From the NCBI RefSeq assembly GCF_021083645.1, contig NZ_JAJNRQ010000001.1:186001-250000 (forward strand): a stretch of DNA of 64,000 nt, read 5' to 3'. The position numbers and the translations under genes are program-made. Below, piece after piece: positions 10,026 through 62,000 of this stretch; the first letter of the stretch is position 1; each line of letters begins with the position of its first letter. The stretch comes from Schaalia sp. lx-260 (GTDB lineage: Bacteria > Actinomycetota > Actinomycetes > Actinomycetales > Actinomycetaceae). Under the pieces are notes generated by a model. That model worked only from the letters and a program-made list of their open reading frames with translations. It searched no databases and was not told the origin of the DNA.

Positions 10026-10409
10026 TGTTCGCTCCTACCCGAGAGGATTACATACGGTACAGAGGCAGGGCTTTCATGCGTGTTTTCATGGCACTGAGCC
10101 TCTCAGATGTGTTCAATGTGGAAAATATGCGTGTTCTTTTCTGTGAAAAGAACAGTAGTACGGTGTCGCGCAGCGGAGCTTTGCTCAACGCTGAATTTAA
10201 TTCTACGTTATTTTGATGCACGAAATTGTTATTTTGACGCGTGAATCAAAGGGATTTTTGCGTATGAATGTACTTTTATGCGGGGGGGGGGGATCTCTGA
10301 GAACGCCAACAAATACAGGCACACGACATGGTGAATGTGACATGTAAAAGCCTTACGAATGAGCGTCCTCTGACATGCCTGACGAGGGCCTATCTACCTA
10401 AAAGGCCCC
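10026..10409. other. Intergenic region with poly-G tract
   Basis: No gene recognised between the small membrane protein and the end of ptsI. Short frames on both strands are interrupted. The notable content is the G11 run at 10282-10292; a candidate minus-strand promoter spans it (see findings). Confidence 0.5.
10282..10292. repeat. Homopolymer G11 (C11 on minus strand)
   Basis: Eleven consecutive G residues in non-coding DNA. On the minus strand, TTCTCA and CATAAA flank the tract at a 17-base spacing (GAGAT + C11 + G), which is the optimal distance for a housekeeping promoter facing the small membrane protein gene. The hexamers are only partial matches. Confidence 0.85.
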
Positions 10410-12095
10410 TCAGATACCTAAAGCTGCGCGCGCGCGAACACGCGCATCACCTGCATCACGTGCCCCCGCCACAGCCTCGGCTGCTGCGCGACACTGCGCG
10501 AGACTCACCTGACCTAAAGCCGCACCTACACCAGCAATAGCGCCAGCGGCCATTGACAGGGAAGTGACACCCATACCTACCAGAACACACGCCAAAATTG
10601 GATCAGAAGCAGCCTCCCCGCACACTCCCACGGGCTTATGATGCTCCTGCCCACTACGAGCTACACGAGCAATTAAAGCCAAAGGCGCAGGCTGCCACGG
10701 GTCTGAATACTCCGCTAAATCAGCAGATAAACGATCTGCTGCCATCGTGTACTGAGTCAGATCATTTGTTCCAATCGACACAAAATCAACTAAAGGCATG
10801 AACTGGTCCACAAGTACGGCAACAGAGGGGACTTCCACCATAATGCCGGCACGCAAAGAAACTCCCGCAGCTTGTGCCCGTTCACGTACCAATGATGTAA
10901 ACCACTGGGCCTCAGGAATCGTTGACACCATGGGCGCCATCACCCACACATCTGTCTGAGGATTGTGTTGAGCAGCAAGAGCCAGCGCATCAATTTGATG
11001 GTCGAGCACTTCAGGATGAGGCCCAGTTGTACGTACCCCACGCACACCAAGAGCAGGATTTGGCTCATTATCCAAAGTCGCATAGTGTACGGGCTTATCA
11101 GAACCGGCATCTAAAGTCCGCACGACGACCTTATGGCCAGCAAAAACCTCAAAAACTTCCGAATAAATATGAACCTGCTCATGGATACTCGGTTCAAAAG
11201 GAGCATCCAAGAAAGCTAATTCTGTGCGCAGTAAACCCACACCCTCTGCAACACTTGACTGCGCTGCTGTGCGAGCGGCCGCTCCGTCACCAACATTTGC
11301 TAGTAATTGCACAGCATGGCCATCGCGTGTTCGACCGGGGCCTTGCCACTGATGTATCAGCTGGTTACGCTTGGCGTCGGCTTGTACCAAGGCTTCAGCT
11401 TCAGCAGGATCTACTCCTAGGGTGAGTGTGCCTGCATGTGCGTCAACAAGGACGGGACTTTCAGAGGTAATGAGGCTGAGCTGGCGTGCTGCGACGATGC
11501 AGGGGATTCCTAATTGGCGAGCAATAATAGATGTATGTGAAGTGGGGCCACCAAGTTCTGTTACCATCGCAACACATGCGCGAGGGTCCAGCCCAGCGGT
11601 GTCAGCGGGAGTCAGGTCATCTGCTAAAAGAATATAAGGGGTGTCACGCTGAGGAATTCCCGGTTCAGGTTCCCCTTGGAGATGCGCCAAAATACGGTCA
11701 CGCACATCTTTTAAGTCAGTGGTTCGTTCAGCCATCAGCCCGCCTGCTGCTTCAAAAGCAGCGACGAATTTGTTGGTTGAAGCAATAACGGCATGAACAG
11801 CGGATGCACCTGATTGGATACGGGCCGTAATGTCTTTCACCCATGCGCGGTCTGTGGCAAGTGAAGCGGTCACAATGAGGACATCTGCGGCCTCGCCTTG
11901 TGCGCGTGCGGCGCGGGCAAAAAGATTATCAGCGACGGTGCGCGCACATTGCGTAAAATGTTCGATTTCGTTGGAGCGTTCACTTTCAGGCAAGATCGTA
12001 TCTGAAAGTTCAGGTAGTTCAGGGCGACGGACCCACACTGCAGGAGCGTATGCAATACCTTGGACAACTGGTGTTCCAGTAATTGTTGTACTCAT
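10410..12095 (-). CDS. ptsI: PTS enzyme I (PEP-protein phosphotransferase)
   Basis: A 561-residue enzyme I that moves phosphate from PEP to HPr. The phosphohistidine site is in ELGGPTSHTSIIARQLGIPCIVA. The PEP-binding barrel shows LRTELAF, VVVRTLDAGSDKP, GVRGVRTTGPHPEVLDHQ, MVEVPSVAVLVDQFMPLVDFVSIGTNDLTQYTMAADR, and GVCGEAASDP with the catalytic Cys. The start at 12095 has GGAAAG about 10 bases upstream. No HPr or sugar-specific EII gene is adjacent, so it is a stand-alone general PTS component here. The C-terminus is alanine/arginine-rich. Confidence 0.95.
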   Translation of the reverse strand: MSTTITGTPVVQGIAYAPAVWVRRPELPELSDTILPESERSNEIEHFTQCARTVADNLFARAARAQGEAADVLIVTASLATDRAWVKDITARIQSGASAVHAVIASTNKFVAAFEAAGGLMAERTTDLKDVRDRILAHLQGEPEPGIPQRDTPYILLADDLTPADTAGLDPRACVAMVTELGGPTSHTSIIARQLGIPCIVAARQLSLITSESPVLVDAHAGTLTLGVDPAEAEALVQADAKRNQLIHQWQGPGRTRDGHAVQLLANVGDGAAARTAAQSSVAEGVGLLRTELAFLDAPFEPSIHEQVHIYSEVFEVFAGHKVVVRTLDAGSDKPVHYATLDNEPNPALGVRGVRTTGPHPEVLDHQIDALALAAQHNPQTDVWVMAPMVSTIPEAQWFTSLVRERAQAAGVSLRAGIMVEVPSVAVLVDQFMPLVDFVSIGTNDLTQYTMAADRLSADLAEYSDPWQPAPLALIARVARSGQEHHKPVGVCGEAASDPILACVLVGMGVTSLSMAAGAIAGVGAALGQVSLAQCRAAAEAVAGARDAGDARVRARAALGI

Positions 12096-41936: not shown

Positions 41937-42092
41937 GGCTTGTTTCCGGGTTACCGAAGTTGGACTACTGGAGAACAAGAAAATAAAAGTCCAACACGGG
42001 GGAACCACTGCGACCATTAGGTCTTGGGGTGAAGTTTGGGAAACCGAACCGGGCTCTCCTGCCCGAATCCGACAGCTTACCTCGTAGGGTGA
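41937..42092 (+). ncRNA. c-di-AMP (ydaO/yuaA-type) riboswitch
   Basis: The leader of the NlpC/P60 gene carries the conserved core of this riboswitch: CCGGGTTACCG near the 5' end, a TTGGACT/AGTCCAA stem, GGGGGAACCAC, GGGGTGAAG, and the 3' signature CCGAATCCGACAGCTTACCTCGTAGG. In actinobacteria this class commonly precedes secreted NlpC/P60 or resuscitation-factor genes and turns expression off when c-di-AMP is high. Boundaries are approximate; no covariance search could be run. Confidence 0.88.
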
Positions 42093-42107
42093 AAAAGGAG
42101 AAAACAT

Positions 42108-52605: not shown

Positions 52606-52616
52606 TTTTTTTTTTT
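52606..52616. repeat. Homopolymer T11 upstream of the adhesin gene
   Basis: Eleven consecutive T residues (A11 in the adhesin's orientation) 76 bases before its TTG start. TTGAAT lies directly upstream on the minus strand, with TGTAGC 17 bases later across the tract; an AT-rich TATTAAAT lies nearer to the gene. The tract is thus in a promoter spacer or just upstream of a promoter. Confidence 0.8.
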
Positions 52617-57555: not shown

Positions 57556-57888
57556 TTCAGTGTCTCCCTTGGAATCAATCACCTAATGGTGGGGCGCTCG
57601 CACTATAGCCGCGTGCAAATGAGGCGTGTCCTCAGCGTTCACATGTGGGCCTTATGGAGGGTGACCTGCGCCGGTGCGATAGAGGCAGTAAGGACTTACC
57701 TATTTTTCTGCGTATCTACATACAAGGCTATGGTTACCCTCAGTACGAACCTTCCTAGGGTATCGTCTGAATGAGCCACGCGATAGTGCCCAAAAGCTAT
57801 TCTGACGTTCCGTAATAAAGTGTCTGAACAATGTCACAAAGACTAAGACTTGACATATGCGCATACCTGCGAGCTGATATATAAAAAA
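57556..57888. other. Intergenic region upstream of the ABC exporter
   Basis: About 330 bases with no recognisable gene. It must carry the promoter of the exporter operon on the minus strand. The only palindrome seen is the short TATGCGCATA (57856-57865). Confidence 0.4.
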
Positions 57889-57922
57889 CTTCCGTGTTTC
57901 CAAGAAACTGAAAACACGGAAG
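57889..57922 (-). terminator. Terminator of the DUF5067-like gene
   Basis: CTTCCGTGTTT (57889-57899) pairs with AAACACGGAAG (57912-57922). Reading on the minus strand it is followed by TTTTTTATATAT. Confidence 0.9.
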
Positions 57923-57938
57923 CTCACGTGGACAATTG

Positions 57939-58768
57939 CTACTGCAAGGGGAATTCCTTGGAGAATTTATCGCCAGAGAATGTCCCTGAAATCTTCACAG
58001 TTACCGGTGAAGTTTCATCTGAGAGCACGTAGCCTTTCACAAAGCCCAATGTTCCGCCCGGCTGAATTTCTTTCATCATGTCGGTAGCATCATAACCTTC
58101 AGGTTTTTCACTGAAATAGATGGCACTATCTAACTCAACACCATTTTGGAAGACCTGAATGCGGTAATCAAAAATATTGGATTCTTTATCCTTCTGATTA
58201 TTCGTTACTTCCAGCCCCACAGCGACAGTGGGCTTTGATTCATGGTCAGCAACTGACTTAGTAACGGAAGTAATCTTGATGTGGTACTTGCCGTCAGCAA
58301 CATCACCTTCAGCTGCCTCAGCGTCAGAAGCGGTTTTTGCTGCAGTGTTGGCTGGTTTTTCGGCAGGAGCAGACTCCGCCTTATCTGATTGAGCTGAGGT
58401 GCTTCGTGCAGAAACAGAGGACTGTAATGACTCTGCTGCTGAGTTCAATGCTTTAGCAAATAAATGCTGTGTGCCAAGGGTAATTGCGATACTCAAAACA
58501 GCTACGACAACAGTCGCGATAGCAAGGCCCCTGCCTTGACGCTTTCCTTGTGGTTTAGTGGCAATGACAGCGACAATGCCGAGGATCAGGGCAATCCCGC
58601 CAAGGAAGAAAGCGAAATTATTAATGATCGGAACCCAACTGATGACTAGCGCAAGAATGCCAAGGATGAGGCCAGCGATTCCAGAAACGGTTGTTGACTT
58701 GTGAGTAGCTCCATTGCTATACGTTGGTGAAACACCGCTCTCAGGAACTACAGGGGGGGGGTACTCAT
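57939..58768 (-). CDS. Phase-variable (OFF) membrane protein with DUF4190- and DUF5067-like parts
   Basis: The ATG at 58768 has GGAGG 8 bases upstream. Translation runs ATG-AGT, then a run of nine C residues, and meets TAG at codon 7. The frame one base over is open from the C-run to a stop at 57939. With ten (or seven) C residues the product is an intact ~276-residue protein: a proline-rich start (MSTPPPPVVPESGVSPTYSNG), three membrane segments (SGIAGLILGILALVISWVP; FAFFLGGIALILGIVAVIA; AIATVVVAVLSIAITLGTQ), a Ser/Ala/Glu-rich linker, and an extracellular DUF5067-like domain (YHIKITSVTKSVADHE ... VAVGLEVTNNQKDKESN ... QPGGTLGFVKGYVLSD). The body has no other defect, so recent or reversible inactivation is more likely than decay. 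Function unknown. Confidence 0.85.
58753..58761 (-). repeat. Homopolymer C9 (G9 on plus strand) in the coding start
   Basis: Nine C residues on the coding strand, beginning within codon 3. Count modulo three decides the frame: n = 7 or 10 is ON, 8 or 9 is OFF. In the present state no start codon exists in the open frame between the upstream TAA and the tract. Confidence 0.9.
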
Positions 58769-59017
58769 ATTGTTATCCTCCGAGGTCGAAAAGCCCTCAA
58801 AGCGTAGGGCTGTTAGTGAGTATAGTGTTTTTTCGCTGTACGGGAAAGTAAGAACAAAGTAAGAACGCTGTCTGAGCGAGTATGTAACGACGAGATTATT
58901 TCAGGCCCTGTGAAACAGTACGCAAAAACTTGGAAGAATCTCATGGGCTGAAAGTCCCAAAAAATCTGGATTGCGGTATATAGTGGACAAGTACGTTTCC
59001 CCTCAAGGAGGTCAAAG
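58769..59017. other. Divergent intergenic region upstream of putA
   Basis: 249 bases holding the ribosome binding site of the phase-variable gene (minus) and the promoter and leader of putA (plus). No known riboswitch or gene is recognised. Confidence 0.4.
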
Positions 59018-62000
59018 ATGTCTTTCTTGTCCGATCGAATCGATCGTGCAGTTACACAAGCTCACGCATGGATCGAGGCATCTCGGCAATATCCCACACC
59101 CCGCTCTGCGCAACTACTCGCGGAAGTACTCGACCACCCAGACGGCCTCGAATACACCGTCGCCTTCGTTGATGACGTGATTCGACCTGAAGACAAAAAA
59201 GTTGCAGCCGCCCACCTGAAAAACCTCGCACAGAAAGACACCTCTTTCTTACCTTCCTACCTGAGCGCCCCCGCAGCTATTGGCGGCCGCCTCGCTCCTT
59301 TAGCGCCCAAACTTGCCGCCGCAACAGCAAATAAAGTATTCGCTGCCCTCGTCGGAGATCTAGTCCTCGATGTCACACCCGACAAACTCGGCCGCGCAAT
59401 AGCGAAACTTCGTGCAGACGGCTCACGACTCAACCTGAACCTCCTAGGCGAAGCAGTCCTCGGTGACGAAGAAGCAGCCCGCCGTATGGCTGACACGCGA
59501 GAACTCATTGAACGAGACGACGTGGATTACGTTTCACTGAAAGTATCCGCAGTTATTGGCCCACACGCGCCTTTCGGACACGCCGCAGCAGTGAAAGACG
59601 CAGTTGAAAAACTGCTCCCCATGTACCGGATAGCAAAAGAAAAAAACACTTTCATCAACCTTGACATGGAAGAATACAAAGACCTCGACCTGACAATCGA
59701 TGTCTTTACACGCATCCTTGATATGGAGGAATTCCTACACTACCGCGCCGGTATCGTGCTACAAGCCTATTTACCTGACACTCTTGAACGCCTCAACTAC
59801 CTCACACAATGGTCTCAAGCTCGCCGCGCACGCGGAGGCGCTCCCATTAAAGTCCGGATCGTTAAAGGCGCGAACCTATCAATGGAACGAGTCGATGCCA
59901 TCATTCACGGCTGGGAACTCACAGTACAACCCTCCAAATGCGACACAGACGCGAACTACTTAACCGTCCTTGATACGGCCCTCACACCTGAACGACTGGA
60001 CGCAGTCAATATTGGAATCGCAGGGATGAACCTCTTTACCATCGCCTTCGGACTGGAAACAATGCGCGAACGCGGCGTAACCAGCGGTGTGGACTTCGAA
60101 ATGCTTTCAGGTATGGCAACACCACAATCTCACGCAATACGTGACACCGTAGGGTCGGTCCTGTACTACGTCCCAGTTGTCCGGCCAGAAGAATACGACG
60201 TAGCAGTGGCCTACCTTGTTCGACGACTCGAAGAAAATGCAACCCCTGATAACTTCATGTCGAATGTTTTTGACCTGGATACCGCCGACACGGTCCTCCT
60301 TGAAGAACAACGCTTCCGCCGAGCTGCCGACCAAGCGGAAAAACTCATCCACGGGCCTCGTCGTAAACAAAATCGCTGTGAAGGCACAGAACTTTTACCC
60401 GGTGTTGAGAACTCACGCGACACAGACCCATCACTGCACGCCAATATTGCCTGGGCAGAGGACATCGCGAGCCGAGTAACAACTTCACGTTTAGGTGAAG
60501 ATATTGTTGCTGAACACACCGTGAACTCCCCCGAAGAAGCAGAAAACCTTGTAGCCTCTGTAGCAAAAGCCGCGCAAAAATGGGCACAAACCCCCGCAGC
60601 GCAACGCGCAGAAATCCTACGGAACGTCGCGCAATCTTTCGAGGACCACCGAGCAGAACTCATCGAAGTCGCCGCAAGCGAAGCAGGGAAAGCTGTCGAT
60701 CAAGGTGACGTGGAAGTTTCTGAGGCCGTTGACTTTGCCACCTATTACGCGCAACTGGCTCTTGACCTTGAAGCCCTCGAAGGCGCTGAATACACGCCCG
60801 TCAAAACCACGCTCATCACACCACCATGGAACTTCCCGCTTTCCATACCTGCTGGTGGTGTACTTGCAGCTCTCGCATCAGGCTCAGGGGCCATTTTGAA
60901 GCCAGCGAACCTGACCCAACGCACTGGCGCCTACATCGCTCACCTGATGTGGGAAGCCGGTGTACCACGTGACGTTCTGGCCTTAGCAATTGCCGCTGAA
61001 AACGTGTGCGGACAAACCCTGGTTGAAAAATCCGATCAAGTAATCCTCACAGGATCTATCGACACCGCACGTCTTTTCCGCTCATGGCGACCAAACCTAC
61101 GCCTATTTGCTGAAACATCAGGGAAAAACTCAATCATTGTGACACCGCACGCAGATATCGACCTCGCGGTGAAAGACGTTGTTGCTTCCGCTTTCGGGCA
61201 CGCCGGACAAAAATGCTCAGCCGCGTCCTTAGTGATTCTCGTAGGCTCGGTCGGATACTCACGTCGCTTCCAACGTCAGCTCATTGATGCGGTTCGTTCC
61301 TTGAAACTAGGCTACCCTGATGATCTTTCAGCGCAAATGGGGCCAATGGTTGAAGCACCTCACGGCAAACTGCTCAGCGGCCTGACAACTCTAGGTGAAG
61401 GCGAAGCATGGGCAATCAAACCACGCCAGATCAGCGATACGCTGTGGAGCCCAGGCGTGCGCGTCAATGTGAAACCTGGCAGCGAATACCACCTGACAGA
61501 ATACTTCGGTCCGATCCTTGGTGTTATGCGCGCTGATACGTTAGAGCAAGCTATGCAATGGCAAAATGCGGTGGATTTCGGCCTGACAGCAGGTATCCAC
61601 TCGCTGGAGCCCACCGAAGTAGAAATCTGGCTTGCAGGTGTCGAAGCTGGAAACGTATACATCAACCGCACCATCACCGGAGCAATTGTGCGTCGTCAGC
61701 CCTTCGGCGGCTGGAAACGCTCATGCGTGGGGAGCGGAACGAAAGCTGGAGGGCCGAACTACCTGATCGGCCTCGGCCATGTCAAAGATGCTCCACTGGC
61801 ACCTACAGGACGTTCTTTGAATATCCCGATCTTCCGCAAGACTTTAAGTGCCATTACTCAATGCCCACATGCAGATACGGACCGTATAACAGCCATGCTT
61901 GAAAGCATGGAGGAAGCTATCGCCACGCATTTTTGTGCTGAAGATGTCTGTGCTTTAGGTGTAGAAAAGAACGTCCTGCGATATCTGCCAGAAGAAAATG

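Follow-up and report, generated by a model that had tools for sequence, protein, structure and literature searches.

The stretch of Schaalia sp. lx-260 analysed here, 64,000 nt in full length and called the window below, carries on its minus strand a membrane-protein gene that is in all likelihood a slipped-strand contingency (phase-variable) gene, sequenced in its OFF state. The original prediction, namely an actinobacterial membrane gene that is phase-variable, has a DUF5067 domain and is at present out of frame, is supported by the long G/C tracts found throughout the genome, by a relative in Canibacter zhuwentaonis, and by the conservation of the reading frame behind the tract.

At the locus, a tract of nine C on the coding strand (58753..58761, minus strand; read as nine G on the plus strand) falls in codons 3-6 of the ORF starting at 58768. 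The ATG start codon lies at 58766..58768 (minus strand), and a GGAGG ribosome-binding site is placed 8 nt before it (58777..58781, minus strand), giving the minus-strand order GGAGG-N8-ATGAGTA-C9-TG-TAG. At the present tract length the ATG frame reads ATG AGT ACC CCC CCC CTG TAG, and six residues are thus followed by a stop (58748..58750, minus strand). Direct reading bears out the predicted succession of GGAGG-N8-ATG-AGT and nine C, with an A ahead of the C9. The TAG, which had been described as immediate, does stand behind the tract but does not adjoin it, as two bases (TG) intervene.

The neighbouring frame opens inside the tract and runs for 271 codons plus a stop (57939..58754, minus strand; stop at 57939-57941), close to the roughly 270 codons expected, and it encodes three hydrophobic segments followed by the DUF5067 domain. 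The frame arithmetic of the original prediction is correct, since ten or seven C would restore the full protein. Within the open frame, no ATG, GTG or TTG occurs before the TTG at 58496, whose position, worked out from the segment prediction, falls within the last of the three hydrophobic segments. Starts of these kinds therefore cannot give the whole protein, in agreement with the claim that the open frame lacks an alternative start. Access to the frame thus depends on a long homopolymer early in the ORF, as in a slipped-strand gene. Apart from the frameshift at the tract no lesion was found, the start, the ribosome-binding site and a terminator-like hairpin all being present. The hairpin lies 3' of the gene (57886..57925, minus strand), and its stem of 18 pairs with a T-rich tail, read from 57925 to 57886, matches the good terminator that had been predicted. 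A consensus promoter scan of 57700-59100 found none before the gene, which counts against the contingency-gene reading.

As for the encoded protein, the DUF5067 domain (PF16729; 57987..58352, minus strand) was recognized with an E-value of 2e-25 and a score of 89.6 bits, above the gathering cut-off of 27, and it is predicted to lie outside the membrane segments. DUF4190 (PF13828) scored 25.5 bits against a cut-off of 35 (E 1e-5). Hence the DUF5067 part of the earlier DUF4190/DUF5067-like label stands, while the DUF4190 part is weak and below its cut-off. In a profile search against the PDB the two matches were weak, namely 2llg, aligned over the DUF5067 part (E 0.011), and 8s4d (E 0.87). Most probably, the gene encodes a small membrane protein whose DUF5067 domain would be exposed at the cell surface.

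Relatives were sought in 84,980 species genomes by a scan that covers close relatives only and from which records very near the window genome may be absent. It returned two loci, one in C. zhuwentaonis lx-45 (82% identity, residues 5-271) and one in Weissella minor, the latter matching the membrane part (43% identity, residues 26-115). The Canibacter gene reads ATGAGTA, 11 C and three extra bases, and it is again out of frame; its start and start context are identical to those of the window gene. The common block (57855..58903 of the window, minus strand) takes in the leader, ribosome-binding site, start, tract, gene and terminator at 86% DNA identity; its 1,061 aligned columns begin some 135 nt ahead of the start and end with the terminator. 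The block occupies another locus in Canibacter: by reading of the ORFs, its neighbours there are a Dps-like gene and a large gene for an exported protein, and in the window it is flanked by putA and a pair of ABC transporter genes.

Of the 265 residues aligned behind the tract, 221 are identical; the sole gap is in frame (five residues), and there is no stop. The dN/dS ratio was 0.50 (bootstrap 0.30-0.84), with 0.31 in the first 110 codons and 0.64 in the rest. A ratio below 1 is in favour of the contingency-gene reading, but 0.50 is only moderately below it, which counts against. Meanwhile, tract length differs between the related alleles while the ORF is kept, 9 vs 11 C in a comparison with one relative of another species at one assembly per species. 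Neither further lesions nor neutral evolution, as expected of a pseudogene, was seen in the two copies at this dN/dS. Decay of the gene in other genomes by further disabling mutations, which the original prediction had named as evidence against itself, was looked for in this one close relative and not found. Because the ORF has been kept as a protein though both sequenced copies are out of frame, reversible silencing fits better than decay.

The tract is also one of a large set. Within the window, G/C runs of length 4 to 8 number 223, 42, 3, 0 and 0, followed by one run of 9 and one of 11. The second of these, a G11 at 10282-10292 (plus strand), lies between two convergent genes, of which the minus-strand one ends at 10410 and is PTS enzyme I-like by ORF reading; neither gene was assigned to this tract. 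The only A/T run of at least 9 in the window is a T11 at 52606-52616, and a c-di-AMP riboswitch (RF00379, 66.8 bits) was located at 41979-42105 (plus strand).

The whole window genome (G000; 1.93 Mb, 12 contigs) contains 15 G/C runs of length 7, two of length 8 and 24 of length 9-13, making 26 of at least 8. For comparison, two single genomes simulated with Markov models of order 2 and order 4 contained, respectively, 61 and 30 runs of length 7, 9 and 5 runs of length 8, and 3 and 1 runs of at least 9. As the counts in G000 fall and then rise again with length, composition alone does not explain its tracts. The tract in the gene is thus longer than chance would give and part of a genome-wide set (24 vs 3 and 1 at length 9 or more). 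Another genome of the same genus, G025 (one contig, 16S identity 98.2%), has 17 runs of length 7 and 26 of at least 9. At least one run of 9 or more was present in 33 of the 35 genomes of the genus, with counts from 0 to 146 that are not directly comparable across it, since composition varies much (GC of the homologue loci 52-71%). The 146 runs belong to G030 (2.6 Mb, 560 contigs), where they could reflect a peculiarity of the assembly or else an extremely large set of tracts.

The C. zhuwentaonis record (1.4 Mb) holds 37 runs of at least 8, with lengths of 8-14, including ten of 13, nine of 14 and none of 12. Four of its loci (L089:198, L108:989, L100:2534 and L104:2530) are copies of one upstream element and carry poly-G of 14, 14, 9 and 9, respectively, between identical 20-nt flanks. 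Of all the observations, this one comes closest to tract change within a single genome; the copies occupy separate places, in part near contig ends, and other causes could apply. In the same record, a C9 (L084:7027-7035) stands near the junction of two consecutive same-strand ORFs of 402 and 667 aa, the former with an exported-protein start and the latter with a wall-anchor end; the pair has the look of a single large surface protein interrupted by the tract.

The surroundings of all 26 tracts of the window genome were assigned to genes by eye from ORFs and Pfam domains, and distances and N-termini were then checked. Thirteen tracts precede ten genes (L065, L070 with two tracts, L072, L074, L076 with two, L077, L078, L079, L080 with two, and L082), at distances of 9-207 nt from the chosen starts. 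With the exception of L065, the products of these ten genes have an export-type hydrophobic N-terminus, and five of the nine export-type products contain SHIRT, MucBP, FIVAR/GA/aRib or DUF1542 domains. Eight further tracts are intragenic. Downstream of the tract, the window gene, L062, L063 (SpaA-type pilin) and L068 (multi-spanning membrane protein) have a closed frame, and it is open in L066 (Eco57I-type methylase), L071 (BNR sialidase-like wall protein), L073 (phage portal) and L075. L068 resembles the window gene in that the tract comes after a proline-rich N-terminus. By this reading of the ORFs, 14 of the 26 tracts would be at genes for exported proteins, namely 12 upstream ones and those in L063 and L071. 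The five tracts with no gene assigned (L064, L067, L069, L081 and L083) and the one inside the phage portal gene L073 count against the contingency-gene reading.

An ending of L(P/A)xTG plus a hydrophobic tail was found in all six complete wall-type ORFs checked (L063, L071, L072, L074, L079 and L082), and in the same check L062 and L068 showed no such ending; the check took in complete ORFs, the others being cut by the fetched stretch. In G025, at least three of the 26 tracts precede wall-anchored-type proteins (L147, L155 and L164). Two other neighbours in the window genome deserve mention. The adenine methylase gene of the Eco57I type (L066:2385-4019; contig G000:C4, about 467 kb) contains its G9 in frame and is a candidate DNA-methylation switch (phasevarion), and a Lactococcin 972-like bacteriocin gene (L069:3683-4003; G000:C5) lies about 490 nt downstream of a G11.

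To try a role of the tracts as promoter spacers, -35/-10 pairs spanning each tract were scored on the two strands and compared with those in 300 shuffled versions of its flanks, and the outcome was weak. L065 alone stood out in the window genome (p 0.023), and in C. zhuwentaonis L100 and L104 (0/300) and L088 (0.05) did so, with a few more near 0.05-0.1. Because more than 100 uncorrected tests were made, the claim for these tracts is limited to a position upstream of the start.

The following alternatives are not mutually exclusive, and their probabilities should be read accordingly. The one that survives best is an assembly or sequencing error, by which the true tract would have another length and the gene would be intact. 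Homopolymers are error-prone and both copies come from multi-contig assemblies. We nevertheless regard this as unlikely, because the long poly-C is real even if its count is off, the relative differs in tract length and has three extra bases alongside, and long tracts are over-represented in the genome, many of them at genes for exported proteins. A miscounted tract would, moreover, be compatible with a switchable gene.

Such tracts recur in a part of the gene family. We compared 37 homologue genes of the window's family, of which 27 came from the 33 matches of one search (including L059, a paralogue in the window genome) and 10 from another; the window gene itself, second pieces of one gene, repeats and three matches without a locus were left out. 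At least eight C around or before the start, all on the sense strand, were found in 8 of the 37 homologues vs 2 of 214 equal-sized control windows from the same loci (Fisher P 4e-6, an optimistic value because the homologues are not independent). In four of the eight, a nearby ATG precedes the tract, and the frame from that ATG ends shortly beyond it; these are G025 (L111), G171 (L131), G009 (L112) and G029 (L049). The last two also have a start further upstream in the open frame, and their ON/OFF state is unsure. The tract is in the leader in the other four (G028, G109, G107 and G160). Meanwhile, 29 of the 37 homologues are without such a tract, which counts against generality. The seven nearest same-genus relatives (L033-L039; 33-45% identity) are among these 29, and the tract is likewise missing from all nine homologues in the Canibacter family sample.

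These homologues bear on a second alternative, in which the gene is expressed anyway because slippage of RNA polymerase or the ribosome on the poly-C supplies a certain amount of complete protein whatever the tract length. In principle, slippage can occur on C runs of nine or more, and in L111, L112, L131 and L049 the nearby ATG is out of frame, a state that constitutive slippage would permit. However, half of the tracts in the genome are upstream of genes, where the frame is irrelevant. The two closest copies are, in addition, out of frame in opposite senses, so that a fixed one-way slip would not serve both. Expression at every length is thus rather improbable.

The family is distributed in patches. 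Matches to the window protein at E <= 1e-15 were obtained in 18 of 213 genomes of the window's family, its own included, the next best being 42% identical; in the Canibacter family sample, matches at E <= 1e-10 occurred in 10 of 398 genomes, Canibacter included, with the next best at 40%. A fixed frameshift in a gene heading for loss would account for this patchiness and for both examined genomes being out of frame, but it is very improbable given two copies with no other stop or frameshift and one in-frame gap, a dN/dS whose upper bootstrap limit is 0.84, and the retention of the upstream region, ribosome-binding site and terminator.

As a contingency gene, the locus would work as follows. 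Replication slippage would change the number of C just inside the start codon, and at one tract length in three translation begun at the ATG would run on into the membrane and DUF5067 parts, the other lengths giving a short peptide but not the protein. Both ON and OFF cells would then be present in a population, and the assembly would have caught the OFF state. The benefit may be bet-hedging against the host or phage. The tract, its frames, the conserved ORF, the genome-wide tract set and the different tract length in a relative were observed directly. That the switch moves cells between states is suggested by the anatomy of the locus and by comparison among relatives, and slippage rate, switching, surface display and benefit are inferred. 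A search for the MutS_V domain found none in G000, G025 or the C. zhuwentaonis record, and NucS was found in all three. NucS of Mycobacterium smegmatis does not repair indels of 1-2 bases (PMC11551767). Slippage at the C9 should thus go largely uncorrected.

The Canibacter copy further points to movement of the gene. The 16S identity between the window genome and C. zhuwentaonis is 87.0%, and synonymous divergence (dS) is 0.17 for the gene vs 1.35 for tuf, the one core gene compared, which indicates that the cassette moved horizontally. Low synonymous divergence relative to the core gene thus comes together with the patchy distribution described above. In a tree of 26 proteins the Canibacter protein stands beside that of the window (100/100), and the enclosing group, whose other members all come from the window's genus, has values of 82/94 and is not one of the forks with good support. 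The tree is midpoint-rooted, with long branches elsewhere. The likeliest course, as judged from these comparisons, would be that Canibacter received the gene from the window's lineage, or that both acquired it from a member of that lineage outside the sample. As to a vehicle, a repeat was looked for at the borders of the common block and not found, no plasmid gave a near match to 57900-59400, and among viral contigs there was no exact match to a 27-mer common to both copies and no confirmed homologue.

It is quite possible, though a little short of probable, that this is a portable contingency gene, whose leader, start, poly-C, membrane/DUF5067 gene and terminator travel as a unit between actinobacterial families. 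The switch would work in the new host, needing only replication slippage where NucS repair ignores small indels. If that reading is true, membrane genes of the DUF5067 type would be a recurrent and traded class of phase-variable surface proteins. More generally, the results suggest that a little-studied actinobacterial lineage has poly-G/C switches on its surface proteins, as in Neisseria, Campylobacter and Gardnerella, and that DUF5067, a little-studied domain family, is one of the switched classes. They also provide an example on which the movement of a switch together with its gene from one family to another can be tested, and they touch on whether the absence of MutS-type repair makes it easy for actinobacteria to evolve such switches.

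Among the papers listed by literature searches, none reported such switching in DUF5067/DUF4190 genes, Canibacter, Rothia, Schaalia, Actinomyces or Actinomycetaceae; one match on phase variation in Actinomyces concerned phosphorylcholine and not this gene. The poly-G/poly-C contingency genes of Campylobacter and Neisseria have Gram-negative hosts and belong to other gene families. They share the repeat-driven ON/OFF switching of surface genes (PMC6321876, PMC5953494). Phase variation by homopolymer indels is described for Mycobacterium tuberculosis (PMC11898584), i.e. the same indel-driven mechanism in an actinobacterium but in a different system, that of ESX-1-associated genes.

Closer parallels come from two other actinobacteria. 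Across 91 Gardnerella genomes, a median of 20 G/C tracts of at least 8 per genome was reported, about 70% of the G/C tracts lying upstream of ORFs and about a quarter of tracts inside, with GA, FIVAR, Rib and LPXTG surface proteins and methyltransferases among the tract genes; one tract was seen to vary (9 and 10) by Sanger sequencing of colonies (PMC11287997). Gardnerella is thus like the window genome as an actinobacterium with many upstream G/C tracts and with surface-protein and methyltransferase targets. It differs in lineage and in that within-strain variation has been seen there, while the window is known from one assembly. The available part of that account mentions neither a DUF5067 gene nor horizontal transfer of a tract-bearing gene. 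In Propionibacterium (Cutibacterium) acnes, 54 variable tracts were described, 96% of them G or C and 72% intergenic, the rest being inside genes, with some in promoters; tract lengths mostly follow clades, which its authors read as slow change (PMC4746626). C. acnes is likewise an actinobacterium with G/C tracts, but the genes named are others. Since G/C tracts at surface genes or promoters have been described in both, the mechanism is already known in actinobacteria, and the new part suggested by our comparisons would be the transfer of a gene together with its tract and the recurrence of tracts within one gene family.
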